In this document: in pieces, positions 11,935-16,823 of the stretch
Numbering within the stretch: the first letter of the stretch is position 1
Layout of the letters: each line of letters begins with the position of its first letter
NCBI GenBank assembly: GCA_903926465.1
Contig: CAIYJE010000119.1
Location: 1-64,000 of the forward strand
Direction: 5' to 3'
DNA: 64,000 nucleotides
Origin: an uncultured Planctomycetales bacterium
Lineage (GTDB): Bacteria > Planctomycetota > Planctomycetia > Isosphaerales > Isosphaeraceae
Notes under the pieces: model-generated
Told to the model about the DNA's origin: nothing
Database searches by the model: none
Seen by the model: only the letters and a program-made list of their open reading frames with translations
Position numbers and translations under genes: made by a program

Positions 11935-12942
11935 ATGGCGGTGCGCGTTGGTATTAACGGGTTTGGTCGGATTGGGCGTCTTGTTTTCCGCGTGATGGCT
12001 GCCCGCCCGAATGATTTCGAGGTGGTTGCTATTAACGATCTTTCGAGCGCAGAGCATCTGGCGATGCTCTTGAAGTACGATAGCGCTCAGGGCCGTTTTG
12101 ATGGAACCGTTGAGGCTGGCGACAAGGCTTTGATCGTCAACGGCAAGAAGATTCCGATCACCGCCGAGCGTGACCCCGCCAACCTCCCCTGGAAAGCACT
12201 GAACTGCGAGATCGCGCTTGAGTCTACCGGTTTCTTCACGAACCGGGCCTCACTGGAAAAGCACCTGGCCGCTGGTGCCCACAAGGTGGTACTGAGCGCT
12301 CCTGCCAAGGACAAGCTTGACCAGACCGTGGTCATGGGCGTGAATGATTCCAAGCTCAAGACTTCGGATCGGATCGTGTCCAACGCCAGCTGCACGACCA
12401 ACTGCCTGGCACCGATGGCCAAGGTTCTCAATGACACCTTCGGCATCGTGAAGGGTCTGATGACCACGGTTCACGCCTACACCAACGACCAGCGCGTGGC
12501 CGACCAGATTCACGAAGATCTTTATCGTCAGCGTGCCGCTGCCGTGAATATCATTCCCACCAAGACGGGTGCCGCAAAGGCCGTGGGTGAAGTGATTCCA
12601 GAACTCGATGGCAAGCTCACCGGCTTTGCCCTTCGCGTTCCGGTTCTCACCGGCTCGGTCACCGACCTCACGGTCGAACTGGCCCGCAACGTGACCCGCG
12701 ATGAAATCAACCACGCCATCAAGGCAGCCTCCGAAGGTCACCTCAAGGGGATCATCGAGTACTGCACAGACCCGATCGTTTCCAGCGACATCATTGGGAA
12801 CCCACACTCCAACATCTTCGTTCCAGACCAGACGCTTGTCATTGGCGGCAACCTCGCCAAGGTCATCGCATGGTATGACAACGAGTGGGGTTATTCGAGC
12901 CGGACCGCTGAGCTCATCTCGCTGCTGTCCAAGCTGGGTTGA
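11935..12942 (+). CDS. gap: Glyceraldehyde-3-phosphate dehydrogenase, type I
   Basis: 335 residues, the usual length. It oxidises glyceraldehyde 3-phosphate to 1,3-bisphosphoglycerate with NAD in glycolysis. The NAD-binding [15 protein letters not shown] is at the N-terminus, and the catalytic [12 protein letters not shown] (Cys near residue 153) and the C-terminal [11 protein letters not shown] are intact. GAGGAG stands about ten bases before the ATG. It is followed by pgk on the same strand, but an intrinsic terminator lies between them. Confidence 0.98.
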
Positions 12943-13084
12943 TCTTGCTTGCTCTGACGAGATTCACCGTGTCAAAACCGGGACGGGCTCCAGAAGTTTC
13001 AGGTGCCAGTTTAGGTTTGATCGGAGTCATTTCAGAGCCACACCGATCAAAAGCTGGCACTGTTCTTTGTGATAGACGCACAGT

Positions 13085-13117
13085 GGCACCGTTGAGTCTC
13101 AACGGTGCCCTTTTTTT
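13085..13117 (+). terminator. Intrinsic terminator between gap and pgk
   Basis: A perfect 11-base-pair stem, GGCACCGTTGA with TCAACGGTGCC, encloses a GTC loop and is followed by C and seven T. It ends 43 bases before the pgk start and 175 bases after the gap stop codon. Confidence 0.9.
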
Positions 13118-13160
13118 GATTCAGACCAACATTCTCAAGATCTTGCCGAGGTGAGTGAAC

Positions 13161-14402
13161 GTGGCCAAACAGACCGTGCGTGATCTGGACCTCAAGGGTA
13201 AAAAGGTTCTTGTACGAGTCGATTTCAACGTGCCCCAGGGCAAGGATGGGTCGATCTCCGATGATCGCCGCATTCGCGCCGCACTCCCAACGCTGCAGCA
13301 CATTCTGGATCAGGGTGGCAGCCTGATTCTGATCAGCCACCTTGGCCGCCCTTCTGGAGACCCAGAGGCAGACAAGCCGTTCCGGATGGACCGGATTGGC
13401 CAGCGGCTTGCGGAACTCATTGGCAGGCCCGTGAAGAAGGTTGATGACACCGTAGGCGAAGCGGCCAAGGCGGCCTGCGCGGCTCTTCAGCCTGGAGAGA
13501 TCGTACTGCTTGAGAACGTTCGCTTTAACAAGGGCGAAAAGGTTCCCAAGAAGGATGAGGCCACGGGTTCAGTGGACCCCAAGTCTGCGGCCAAGCACGA
13601 AGAATTTGCCAAGGAACTCGCTTCGCTGGGCGATGCCTACGTGAACGACGCGTTTGGCACCTGTCACCGCGACGAAGCTTCCATGGTGACATTGCCACGC
13701 CAGTACGCTCCCGAGCAGCGTGCCATTGGTACGCTGGTAGAGAAGGAAGTGCAGATTCTGGCAACGCTGCTCGGTCATCCAGAGCGTCCGATGGTGGCGA
13801 TCATGGGTGGCTCCAAGGTTTCGACCAAGTTCGAGCTGATCGAAAACCTGCTGCCAAATGTTGATAAACTGCTGATCGGCGGCGCCATGACTTACACCTT
13901 CTTGCTGGCCCAAGGCCGCAAGACGGGTAACAGCCTGGTTGAGCCAGACTGGGTTGATAAGGCCCGCGATCTCTTGAAGCGAGCCGCCTCAAAGATTGTT
14001 CTGGCCGACGATGTTCTGATTGCCAACAAGATGAGCGAGGACGCGGAAACCCGCTATATCTCGACCTCCCAGGATATCCCGGACGGCTGGGAAGGGTTTG
14101 ACATCGGCCCTGAAACCGTCAAGCACTTCTCAGAGATTATCAAGACCGCCAAGACCGTGGTCTGGAACGGCCCGGTTGGTAAATTTGAAATCGACGCCTT
14201 TTCCAAGGGTACGCGTGGAATTGCCAAGGCCATGGCCGAATCCTCGGCCGTCACGGCCATCGGAGGCGGAGAGACCGCCGAGGCTGTCGATAAATATGGC
14301 GTGGCCGAGAGCATGAGCCACGTGTCAACCGGCGGTGGAGCGTTCCTGGAATCGCTCGAAGGTAAACAGTTTAATTCACTCAAGGTCATCCCCGACCGTT
14401 GA
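13161..14402 (+). CDS. pgk: Phosphoglycerate kinase
   Basis: 413 residues. It transfers phosphate from 1,3-bisphosphoglycerate to ADP in glycolysis. Landmarks: VLVRVDFNVPQ at the N-terminus, LILISHLGRPSG, AYVNDAFGTCHR, AIMGGSKVSTK, WNGPVGKFE and the C-terminal GGGETAEAV and STGGGAFLE. The GTG at 13161 is chosen because GAGGTGAG ends five bases upstream; a GTG two codons earlier overlaps that site. It directly follows gap, separated by a terminator, so its transcription depends on read-through or on an unseen promoter in the short gap. Confidence 0.97.
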   Translation: MAKQTVRDLDLKGKKVLVRVDFNVPQGKDGSISDDRRIRAALPTLQHILDQGGSLILISHLGRPSGDPEADKPFRMDRIGQRLAELIGRPVKKVDDTVGEAAKAACAALQPGEIVLLENVRFNKGEKVPKKDEATGSVDPKSAAKHEEFAKELASLGDAYVNDAFGTCHRDEASMVTLPRQYAPEQRAIGTLVEKEVQILATLLGHPERPMVAIMGGSKVSTKFELIENLLPNVDKLLIGGAMTYTFLLAQGRKTGNSLVEPDWVDKARDLLKRAASKIVLADDVLIANKMSEDAETRYISTSQDIPDGWEGFDIGPETVKHFSEIIKTAKTVVWNGPVGKFEIDAFSKGTRGIAKAMAESSAVTAIGGGETAEAVDKYGVAESMSHVSTGGGAFLESLEGKQFNSLKVIPDR

Positions 14403-14423
14403 GTTTCAGCCGGAATGGATTCC

Positions 14424-14453
14424 GTTCCCTCTGCGCACACGTGCAGAGGGAAC
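14424..14453 (+). terminator. Hairpin between pgk and rpe
   Basis: GTTCCCTCTGC at 14424-14434 pairs perfectly with GCAGAGGGAAC at 14443-14453 around an eight-base loop. No T run follows, so it may be a Rho-independent-like pause, an mRNA stability element or a processing site. It also argues that rpe starts downstream of it. Confidence 0.55.
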
Positions 14454-14483
14454 GGGCTCTCACTTTGCAGGTGCCAATATCCC

Positions 14484-15212
14484 GTGGATCACGCGGACAG
14501 ACTCGCTCAGATCGAGGCGGCACAACTTCCCTTGGTGATGCCGTCGCTCCTGAACTGTGATTTCTCCAGGGTCGGTGAACAGCTTGACATCCTGAAGGAT
14601 GCAGGCGTGACAGCCGTGCATCTGGACGTGATGGATGGCCATTTCGTCCCGAACTTATCGTACGGACCACCGGTCATTGCCGACTGGCGAAAACGTTCGC
14701 CGCTGTTTTTTGATACCCATCTGATGATCTCCGAGCCGGCCCGCTACGTTGAAGCGTTTGCCGACGCAGGTTGTGATTCTCTGGTGTTTCACATCGAAAC
14801 CGTCAAAGATCCTGTTCCCCTTCTGCGCAAGATTCGCGCACTGGGGTGCCAGGCCGGCCTTTCGCTCAACCCGCCAACCCCGTTCGAGGCCATTGAACCG
14901 TTCCTGACCGAGGTCGACAAGATCTTGGTCATGAGCGTGATGCCCGGGTTTGGTGGCCAGCAGTTCGACCCCGAAGTGCTCTCCAAAGTGAAACGAATTC
15001 GCCTGGCTCGCCCGTCGCTTCCGATTTGCATCGACGGCGGTATCAAGGCAACCAACGCGGCAACCGTGGTTTCCGCAGGCGTAACCCAGCTTGTGGTTGG
15101 GTCTGCCATCTTCCGCCCCGACGGCGATTTTGCCGCGGCCTATCAAGAGATCCTGCAAGCAGGCTCTCTGGGCCGTCATTCCGCGTCCTCCCGGAGTTCT
15201 GAACCCGCATGA
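14484..15212 (+). CDS. rpe: Ribulose-phosphate 3-epimerase
   Basis: 242 residues from the GTG at 14484. It interconverts ribulose 5-phosphate and xylulose 5-phosphate in the pentose phosphate pathway. The TIM-barrel signatures are all present: MPSLLNCDFSRVGEQL, VHLDVMDGHFVPNLSYGP, VMSVMPGFGGQQF and ICIDGGIKATNA. Start choice is uncertain: the ATG at 14538 would give the classic short N-terminus but has no good ribosome-binding site, while 14484 has CAGGTG ten bases upstream. Its stop overlaps the next gene's start (ATGA), so the two are translationally coupled. Confidence 0.93.
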   Translation: MDHADRLAQIEAAQLPLVMPSLLNCDFSRVGEQLDILKDAGVTAVHLDVMDGHFVPNLSYGPPVIADWRKRSPLFFDTHLMISEPARYVEAFADAGCDSLVFHIETVKDPVPLLRKIRALGCQAGLSLNPPTPFEAIEPFLTEVDKILVMSVMPGFGGQQFDPEVLSKVKRIRLARPSLPICIDGGIKATNAATVVSAGVTQLVVGSAIFRPDGDFAAAYQEILQAGSLGRHSASSRSSEPA

Positions 15213-15799
15213 GCGTTCAGGTGGTCTTGGTTCGTCCTGGCGCAACGTCTTATGATGAACAGGCCCGAGTTCAGGGGATTCTGGATCTACCCCTGAGCGA
15301 TCGAGGCACCGAGGAAGCCATCCAACTCGCAACCGATCTTCAGCATCTGGGCCTGACTGCCGTTTACTCTGGGCCAAGCCAGAACGCGGTCCAAACAGCG
15401 GCGCACATTTCGGCCAAGGCGGAAGTTCGGCCCAGACAGCTTGATGAACTGCGGAATCTTGATCAGGGACTCTGGCAAGGTTTGCAGTTCGAGGATATTC
15501 GAAGGCGTAACCACAAGGTCTATCGCCAGTGGCTTGAAGACCCTCGAACCGTTTGTCCGCCCCAGGGAGAGACAATCGAGGAGGCGCTGAACCGGGTCAA
15601 GCAAACTCTCCGGGCGCTACTCAAGCGGCACCGAGATCAGACGATCGCCATTGTGGTGGCAGAACCGATGGCCAAGTTGATTGCGGCTTACCTGCAAGGC
15701 TCTTGCCGATTCCAGTTTGAAGAAGAGGTTCGCACGGGCCATTTTGAAACCTTGGAAGTTCACTGGTCGCTGGAACGAAACGGTCATTCCGTCTCTTGA
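15209..15799 (+). CDS. Histidine-phosphatase-fold protein lacking the catalytic histidines (probable pseudoenzyme)
   Basis: 196 residues. The layout is that of the phosphoglycerate-mutase/histidine-phosphatase superfamily: an N-terminal strand and RHG loop, ILDLPLSDRGTEEA, AVYSGPSQNAVQTA, ELRNLDQGLWQGLQFEDI and a final strand. The defining RHG is RPG (codons CGT CCT GGC), and the second histidine, normally in VVSHG, is replaced in IVVAEPMAK. The arginine of the SxxxxRARQTA helix is also absent. It therefore cannot use the standard phosphohistidine mechanism. It is coupled to rpe by a four-base overlap, which suggests a structural or regulatory role in sugar-phosphate metabolism; that role is an inference. 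Confidence 0.8.
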   Translation: MSVQVVLVRPGATSYDEQARVQGILDLPLSDRGTEEAIQLATDLQHLGLTAVYSGPSQNAVQTAAHISAKAEVRPRQLDELRNLDQGLWQGLQFEDIRRRNHKVYRQWLEDPRTVCPPQGETIEEALNRVKQTLRALLKRHRDQTIAIVVAEPMAKLIAAYLQGSCRFQFEEEVRTGHFETLEVHWSLERNGHSVS

Positions 15800-15974
15800 G
15801 GGTAGAGCCTGCGGAACCCGGTCTGGCTTGAACGGCCGACCAACGGTGCTTCGCAACTGCCGTTGAACTTGCAATAATCATTTTCATTCGATCCGAAGAT
15901 CCGGGGCCCGGATGCTCGGATTGAGCCCCTGGCCGCAAGACCGGCCCCCGCACCGCGACGAGGAGTGTTCGCAC

Positions 15975-16823
15975 ATGGCACAGAAGCGGCCCGGATCTGC
16001 AAGCACCTGGCAAGAGCACAGTGAATCCAAACGCGTCCCAGAAGGGGTCTGGATGCGTTGCGACGGTTGCCAGGCCACGCTCTACCGGAAAGAGGTCGAA
16101 CGGAATCTGAGTGTCTGCCCGCAGTGCCAGCACCATTTCTCAATCAACGCCTGGGAGCGAATCTCCCAGATTTTGGATCAGGATACGTTCGAGGAATGGG
16201 ACGCCAACATGCGGCCCGGTGACCCACTGTCGTTCAATGATCGTCGCCCTTACCCAGACCGCATCAAAGCCGAACAAGAGCGAACTGGCCTGAAAGAAGC
16301 CGCCGTCACCGGCCAGGGCTTCATCAAGGGCATGCGGGTGGTTCTGGGTGTGACAGACTCTGGCTTTATCATGGGCAGCATGGGCTCGGTGGTGGGCGAA
16401 AAGCTAACCAGAGCCCTTGAACGCGCCACAGAACAACTTCTCCCCGTGGTAATTATCTCTGGCTCGGGCGGCGGCGCCCGCATGCACGAGGGAATCTTTT
16501 CCTTGATGCAAATGGCCAAGGTTTCCGCGGCCATCGCGCGTCATAGCAAGGCGGGATGCCTGTTCACCAGCGTTTTGACGCATCCCACCATGGGCGGAGT
16601 GGCAGCCAGCTTTGCCTCGCTGGGAGACGTCATCCTGGCCGAACCCAAGGCCCTGATCGGCTTCGCCGGCCCCAAGGTTATTCAGCAAACCGTCCGGGTG
16701 CAGCTTCCCGAAGGATTCCAGACCAGCGAGTTCCTGCTCGAACATGGCTTCATTGACCGGATCGTCCAGCGCTCGGAACTTCGGAGCACACTCGCCGAAC
16801 TGCTAGACTACGCATCAGCCTGA
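15975..16823 (+). CDS. accD: Acetyl-CoA carboxylase carboxyltransferase, beta subunit
   Basis: 282 residues. It forms, with AccA, the carboxyltransferase that makes malonyl-CoA for fatty acid synthesis. The N-terminal zinc ribbon is visible as CDGC and CPQC near residues 27-50, followed by the crotonase-like core with [45 protein letters not shown] and the [12 protein letters not shown] region. The ATG at 15975 has GAGGAG eleven bases upstream. accA is not in the window. Confidence 0.96.

Follow-up and report, generated by a model that had tools for sequence, protein, structure and literature searches.

The gene studied here (15209..15799, + strand, 196 amino acids) lies in a window of 64,000 nucleotides from an uncultured Planctomycetales bacterium of the Isosphaeraceae. 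It belongs to a one-strand run, gap-pgk-rpe-pseudophosphatase-accD, that extends over positions 11935-16823. Its upstream neighbour is rpe, for ribulose-phosphate 3-epimerase (14415..15212, +; TIGR01163, 224.5 bits for a cut-off of 212.6), the true start of which is probably downstream of 14415. The downstream neighbour is accD, for the acetyl-CoA carboxylase carboxyltransferase beta subunit (15912..16823, +; TIGR00515, 394 bits for a cut-off of 317). Further upstream, gap (11935-12942, +) and pgk (13155..14402, +) were named from sequence, and pgk is found upstream in most Isosphaeraceae that have rpe at this place. The rpe stop codon ends at 15212, and the ATG of the pseudophosphatase gene is located within the rpe end, which confirms the four-base overlap (ATGA) seen in the initial reading of the sequence. 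A dead phosphoglycerate-mutase-like fold thus adjoins the glycolytic genes that precede the mutase step.

The 196-residue protein matches PF00300 (His_Phos_1) over residues 5-164 with an E value of 2.3e-35 (122.5 bits, cut-off 21.7), and its AlphaFold2 model has a pLDDT of 94.4 and a pTM of 0.90. Both the fold and the family profile place it in branch 1 of the histidine phosphatase (HP) superfamily, and structure comparison gives Z > 20 to many members. The best match is PspA of Hydrogenobacter thermophilus (4ij5/4ij6), a metal-independent phosphoserine phosphatase (phmmer E 6e-23, 27% identity); 4ij6 is also the nearest PDB structure (Z 25.7, 188 residues aligned), and PhoE is near as well. 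However, the planctomycete protein lacks the catalytic His, the second Arg, the Glu and the second His of PspA, and it reaches 109.8 bits on the PspA model NF045917, whose cut-off is 350. With the PhoE/YhfR phosphatase of Geobacillus (1h2e/1ebb) and the CobC alpha-ribazole phosphatases it has in common the fold and the core motifs GxWxG and PxxGE, whereas every active-site residue but the first Arg is replaced; on the CobC model TIGR03162 it scores 94.7 bits for a cut-off of 162.9. More generally, it falls far under the cut-offs of all the NCBIfam equivalog models concerned (PspA, CobC, GpmB and others). A Pfam search of the 196 residues found no DNA-binding or other output domain.

Motif positions were read by alignment to PDB chains (PspA, PhoE) and to active paralogues, and the catalytic roles of the aligned positions are taken to be those established for the superfamily (PhoE, dPGM). 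The RHG nucleophile motif has become R9-P10-G11 (15233..15241, +), with Pro in place of His. The second His motif, V[ST]H[GT], now reads V149-V150-A151-E152-P153; in the former second catalytic His region, A151-E152-P153 (15659..15667, +), an acidic residue and Pro153 are fixed. The second phosphate-pocket Arg (SxxxxR) is lost, Asn59 (15383..15385, +) standing there in the context YSGPSQNAVQTA, and this position is variable. These three changes, described as RPG for RHG, IVVAEP in the second His region and a missing SxxxxRARQTA arginine, had been listed in the sequence-only reading together with an otherwise preserved fold, and alignment, profile and model bear it out on each point. Two further changes were not on that list. 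The acid/base Glu is replaced by Asn83 (LREI to LRNL; 15455..15457, +), invariant in the 29 sequences of alignment A1 and present in 119 of 132 overall, and the pocket Asn of RHGxTxxN by Asp16 (15254..15256, +), invariant in the Planctomycetia set. The core motif G87-L-W-Q-G91 (15467..15481, +; GxWEG in active enzymes) is near-invariant. Arg9 is therefore the only canonical catalytic residue left, and the nucleophilic His, second His, second pocket Arg and acid/base Glu that characterize histidine phosphatases are all missing. This pattern suggests that phosphatase chemistry has been lost, and the protein is very probably a pseudoenzyme with no phosphatase activity.

The source genome contains only two other His_Phos_1 matches, L001 (G000:C79) and L003 (G000:C191). 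With RHG and the second His both present, they are candidate active HPs.

A search of 59 related genomes recovered orthologues, at 35-59% identity, from each of the 36 other Isosphaeraceae genomes and from the majority of the remaining families sampled within the class. When 84,980 species genomes were scanned with an alignment as query, 285 coding places came up, 80 of which were kept; these bear Planctomycetota names wherever a taxon is given. A scan of genome contigs with the single protein as query yielded no matches. Among 132 distinct aligned homologues, residue 10 is P in 106, S in 12, H in 7, A in 3, T in 2, D in 1 and C in 1. The seven His10 sequences are all active paralogues added for contrast (L055-L059, L085, L089), which keep the second His and are not beside accD or rpe. 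Close homologues with an intact RHG at this locus, which would have pointed to a recent decay, were looked for; the nucleophile His is absent from all of the approximately 125 orthologues. Dozens of genera have orthologues with these same changes, so that sequencing error or chance can be excluded.

The loss is not confined to Planctomycetia. Homologues upstream of accD were also found outside the class (L082-L084, L086-L088, L202-L205, L214, L216, L224, L229, L232), in hosts that are probably Phycisphaerae and members of one further class. They have neither the nucleophile nor the second His nor the second Arg, and most retain Glu at 83. At the position of E152-P153 they carry Arg-Pro, Pro-Pro or Ala-Asn, and Arg9 is missing in some. 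The profiles of the Planctomycetia and other-class groups match from end to end (hhalign E 8e-57), and the fold of an other-class member is predicted with confidence (AlphaFold2 pLDDT 92.2). In a maximum-likelihood tree, all the dead sequences group together to the exclusion of the active HPs (support 99/99); the latter are represented by just nine sequences, two of which sit on long branches. Within the dead clade, the Planctomycetia group (97/87) is sister to the other-class group (94/91). The simplest reading of this tree would be that catalysis was lost once, before these classes diverged.

Selection was estimated by pairwise Nei-Gojobori dN/dS on orthologue pairs with more than 90% identity. 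Values for the pseudophosphatase gene were mostly 0.014-0.14, far from the value near 1 expected of a gene free to drift, with one pair at 0.23, for which dS was only 0.05; these pairs all came from other genomes, none of the same genus, and the source-genome protein has an ordinary branch length in the maximum-likelihood tree (0.43). The rpe and accD genes gave a similar range in the same pairs. Residues invariant in A1 (29 sequences) are L7, T13, D16, R20, P28, G33, N83, G87, L88, W89, G91, P112, P118, G120, E121, R129 and P153. Eight former-pocket positions, hand-picked after inspection of the alignment and including the variable positions 59 and 151, have a mean entropy of 0.77 versus 1.72 in random sets (P 0.003). 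The replacement residues D16, N83, E/D152 and P153 show little or no variation in Planctomycetia, which suggests that the former pocket is a re-specified site rather than a drifting one. Enzyme fold, loss of catalytic residues and purifying selection, the general marks of a pseudoenzyme, are thus found together. That the gene could be a pseudogene or in recent decay might be supposed from the disappearance of all canonical catalytic residues but the first Arg. However, the loss is common to classes, the frames are intact, dN/dS is low and no active version was found at the locus; recent decay is ruled out by the position-10 survey, the low dN/dS and the monophyly of the dead clade, and we give decay of any kind practically no weight. 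The proposal of a selected pseudoenzyme, made from the sequence alone, is in this respect strongly supported.

Synteny was compared in 125 non-redundant loci found via the pseudophosphatase gene, which are related loci and not independent events. The accD gene is directly downstream in 120 of them, 99 with rpe upstream, 20 without, and 1 at a contig edge. Directly upstream, rpe is present in 104, among which 4 have accD not adjacent (G045, G054, G015, L159) and 1 has the accD side cut off; the 4-bp overlap with rpe recurs in many loci. In G045, G054 and G015, accD has moved to another place in the genome, and the pseudophosphatase gene remains with rpe. Conversely, in four Isosphaeraceae (L063, L066, L067 and L069, in genomes G004, G013, G016 and G023), the only close Rpe is encoded at another locus and belongs to a different clade, common to family f3, probably Gemmataceae (SH-aLRT 99). 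In these genomes, the pseudophosphatase gene is intact beside accD despite displacement of the native rpe. The dead homologue has accD next to it in the other class too. The coupling to rpe proposed initially therefore holds for most loci, but accD is the commoner neighbour and the gene outlives replacement of the native Rpe.

Many other-class genomes, and G182, have rpe directly on accD without the pseudophosphatase gene (L192, L206, L208, L212, L215, L222, L225, L226 and others). Open reading frames upstream of accD in these genomes that gave no match to the pseudophosphatase profile were considered as very diverged relatives and rejected, since of ten that were scanned nine are rpe and one has no Pfam match. 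The rpe-accD pair itself thus appears to be an old, unexplained linkage. Six f3 genomes have neither the pseudophosphatase gene nor the pair, and the gene is also lost in G041, G044 and G182, so that it is not required for acetyl-CoA carboxylase (ACC) or Rpe in general. From these distributions, the gene would be a resident of the old rpe-accD pair that has been repeatedly lost and that tracks accD somewhat more than rpe. Pairwise distance correlations among the pseudophosphatase, rpe and accD revealed no special link to accD. An interaction is not provable from synteny alone, and adjacency may only mirror the old operon. At W81, Q135, R142 and S150, AccD differs between lineages that have the pseudoenzyme and lineages that lack it, and does so in both classes; the difference is confounded by phylogeny and recorded as a lead only.

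What could such a protein do? If HP chemistry had been exchanged for another reaction built on Arg9, Asp16, Asn83 and Glu152, new residues at the old active-site positions should be fixed, as they are across Planctomycetia. However, the sister group differs at these positions, with Glu at 83, varied residues instead of Glu152-Pro153 and an Arg9 that is sometimes lost. A single new active site would thus not be conserved over the family as a whole, and we consider a repurposed enzyme rather improbable. A comparable, low probability goes to a sensor of some ligand, for example a carboxylated or CoA-linked metabolite, that would act on other targets, the operon position reflecting co-expression only. 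The above-average conservation of the hand-picked pocket positions and the place of the gene in a gap-pgk-rpe-accD run agree with a sensor, but the protein has no output domain within its 196 residues, and the phosphate ligands are mostly lost and an acidic residue gained, which makes the old class of ligand unlikely. The sugar-phosphate sensor suggested in the sequence-only reading is possible in principle, but the same changes speak against phosphate binding of the old style.

An allosteric or structural partner of Rpe, the other early suggestion, appears weaker still. It would account for the adjoining rpe, for the many overlaps and for the three genomes where accD is elsewhere and the gene has remained next to rpe. 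On the other hand, the native Rpe was replaced in the four Isosphaeraceae examined with the gene intact beside accD, many relatives have an Rpe that works with no pseudophosphatase, and the rpe-accD pair lives without the gene. Rpe as the partner is thus quite unlikely. Retention of the gene beside accD after displacement of the native rpe favours ACC instead, and the best reading is that AccD is a likelier partner than Rpe.

Taken as a whole, we give about an even chance to an ancient, selected pseudophosphatase of the rpe-accD operon that acts by binding or regulation rather than by catalysis, with AccD as its likeliest partner. A protein of PspA-type fold would have given up phosphatase chemistry in a single event that predates the split of the classes, and would have been retained for a task other than catalysis. 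Its one-time substrate pocket, today lined by Arg9, Asp16, Asn83 and Glu152-Pro153, is likely to bind either a partner or some ligand other than a phosphate. Co-produced with the enzymes of the operon, the protein would most likely bind one of them and tune it or aid its assembly; the carboxyltransferase AccD, at the entry to fatty-acid synthesis, would be the first candidate and Rpe the second. Of these elements, a binding or regulatory role is probable, while AccD or ACC as the partner is a tentative assignment. A bolder version, possible but on balance unlikely, is a phylum-specific regulatory pseudo-subunit of bacterial ACC, whose pocket would sense a metabolite and tie fatty-acid synthesis in Planctomycetota to the flux through central carbon metabolism.

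Dead relatives of enzymes are known in comparable settings. In the heterodimeric PspA/PspB phosphoserine phosphatase of Hydrogenobacter, an HP paralogue is said to be inactive alone and to work as part of the heteromer. This is a precedent, but the linkage of the planctomycete protein is with accD and rpe and not with an active PspA. BADC proteins are inactive relatives of BCCP that regulate plastid acetyl-CoA carboxylase. With them the analogy is functional only, a dead protein tuning a heteromeric ACC; the fold is unrelated and the interaction with ACC hypothetical here.

In the open-access literature searched, we met with no account of such a protein. A pseudoenzyme of a known superfamily is a known kind of object; what appears undescribed is this set of orthologues and the fact that it is linked to accD. 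Databases probably label these proteins histidine phosphatases or phosphoglycerate mutases, probably wrongly for the whole orthologous family. Conserved beside accD across classes, the pseudoenzyme is a concrete candidate for a so far overlooked step of control over fatty-acid synthesis; the cell biology of the phylum is itself unusual. For Planctopirus limnophila a transposon essentiality data set exists (PMC10632474), and neither a histidine phosphatase nor a phosphoglycerate mutase is mentioned in the main text of that essential-gene paper. This species is one of the laboratory strains in which the candidate can be put to the test.

In one genus (G211 and G231), the dead-family member (L090 / L196) has a very long branch of 2.6 and carries the motifs VQPG and DDP, which points to fast evolution there.
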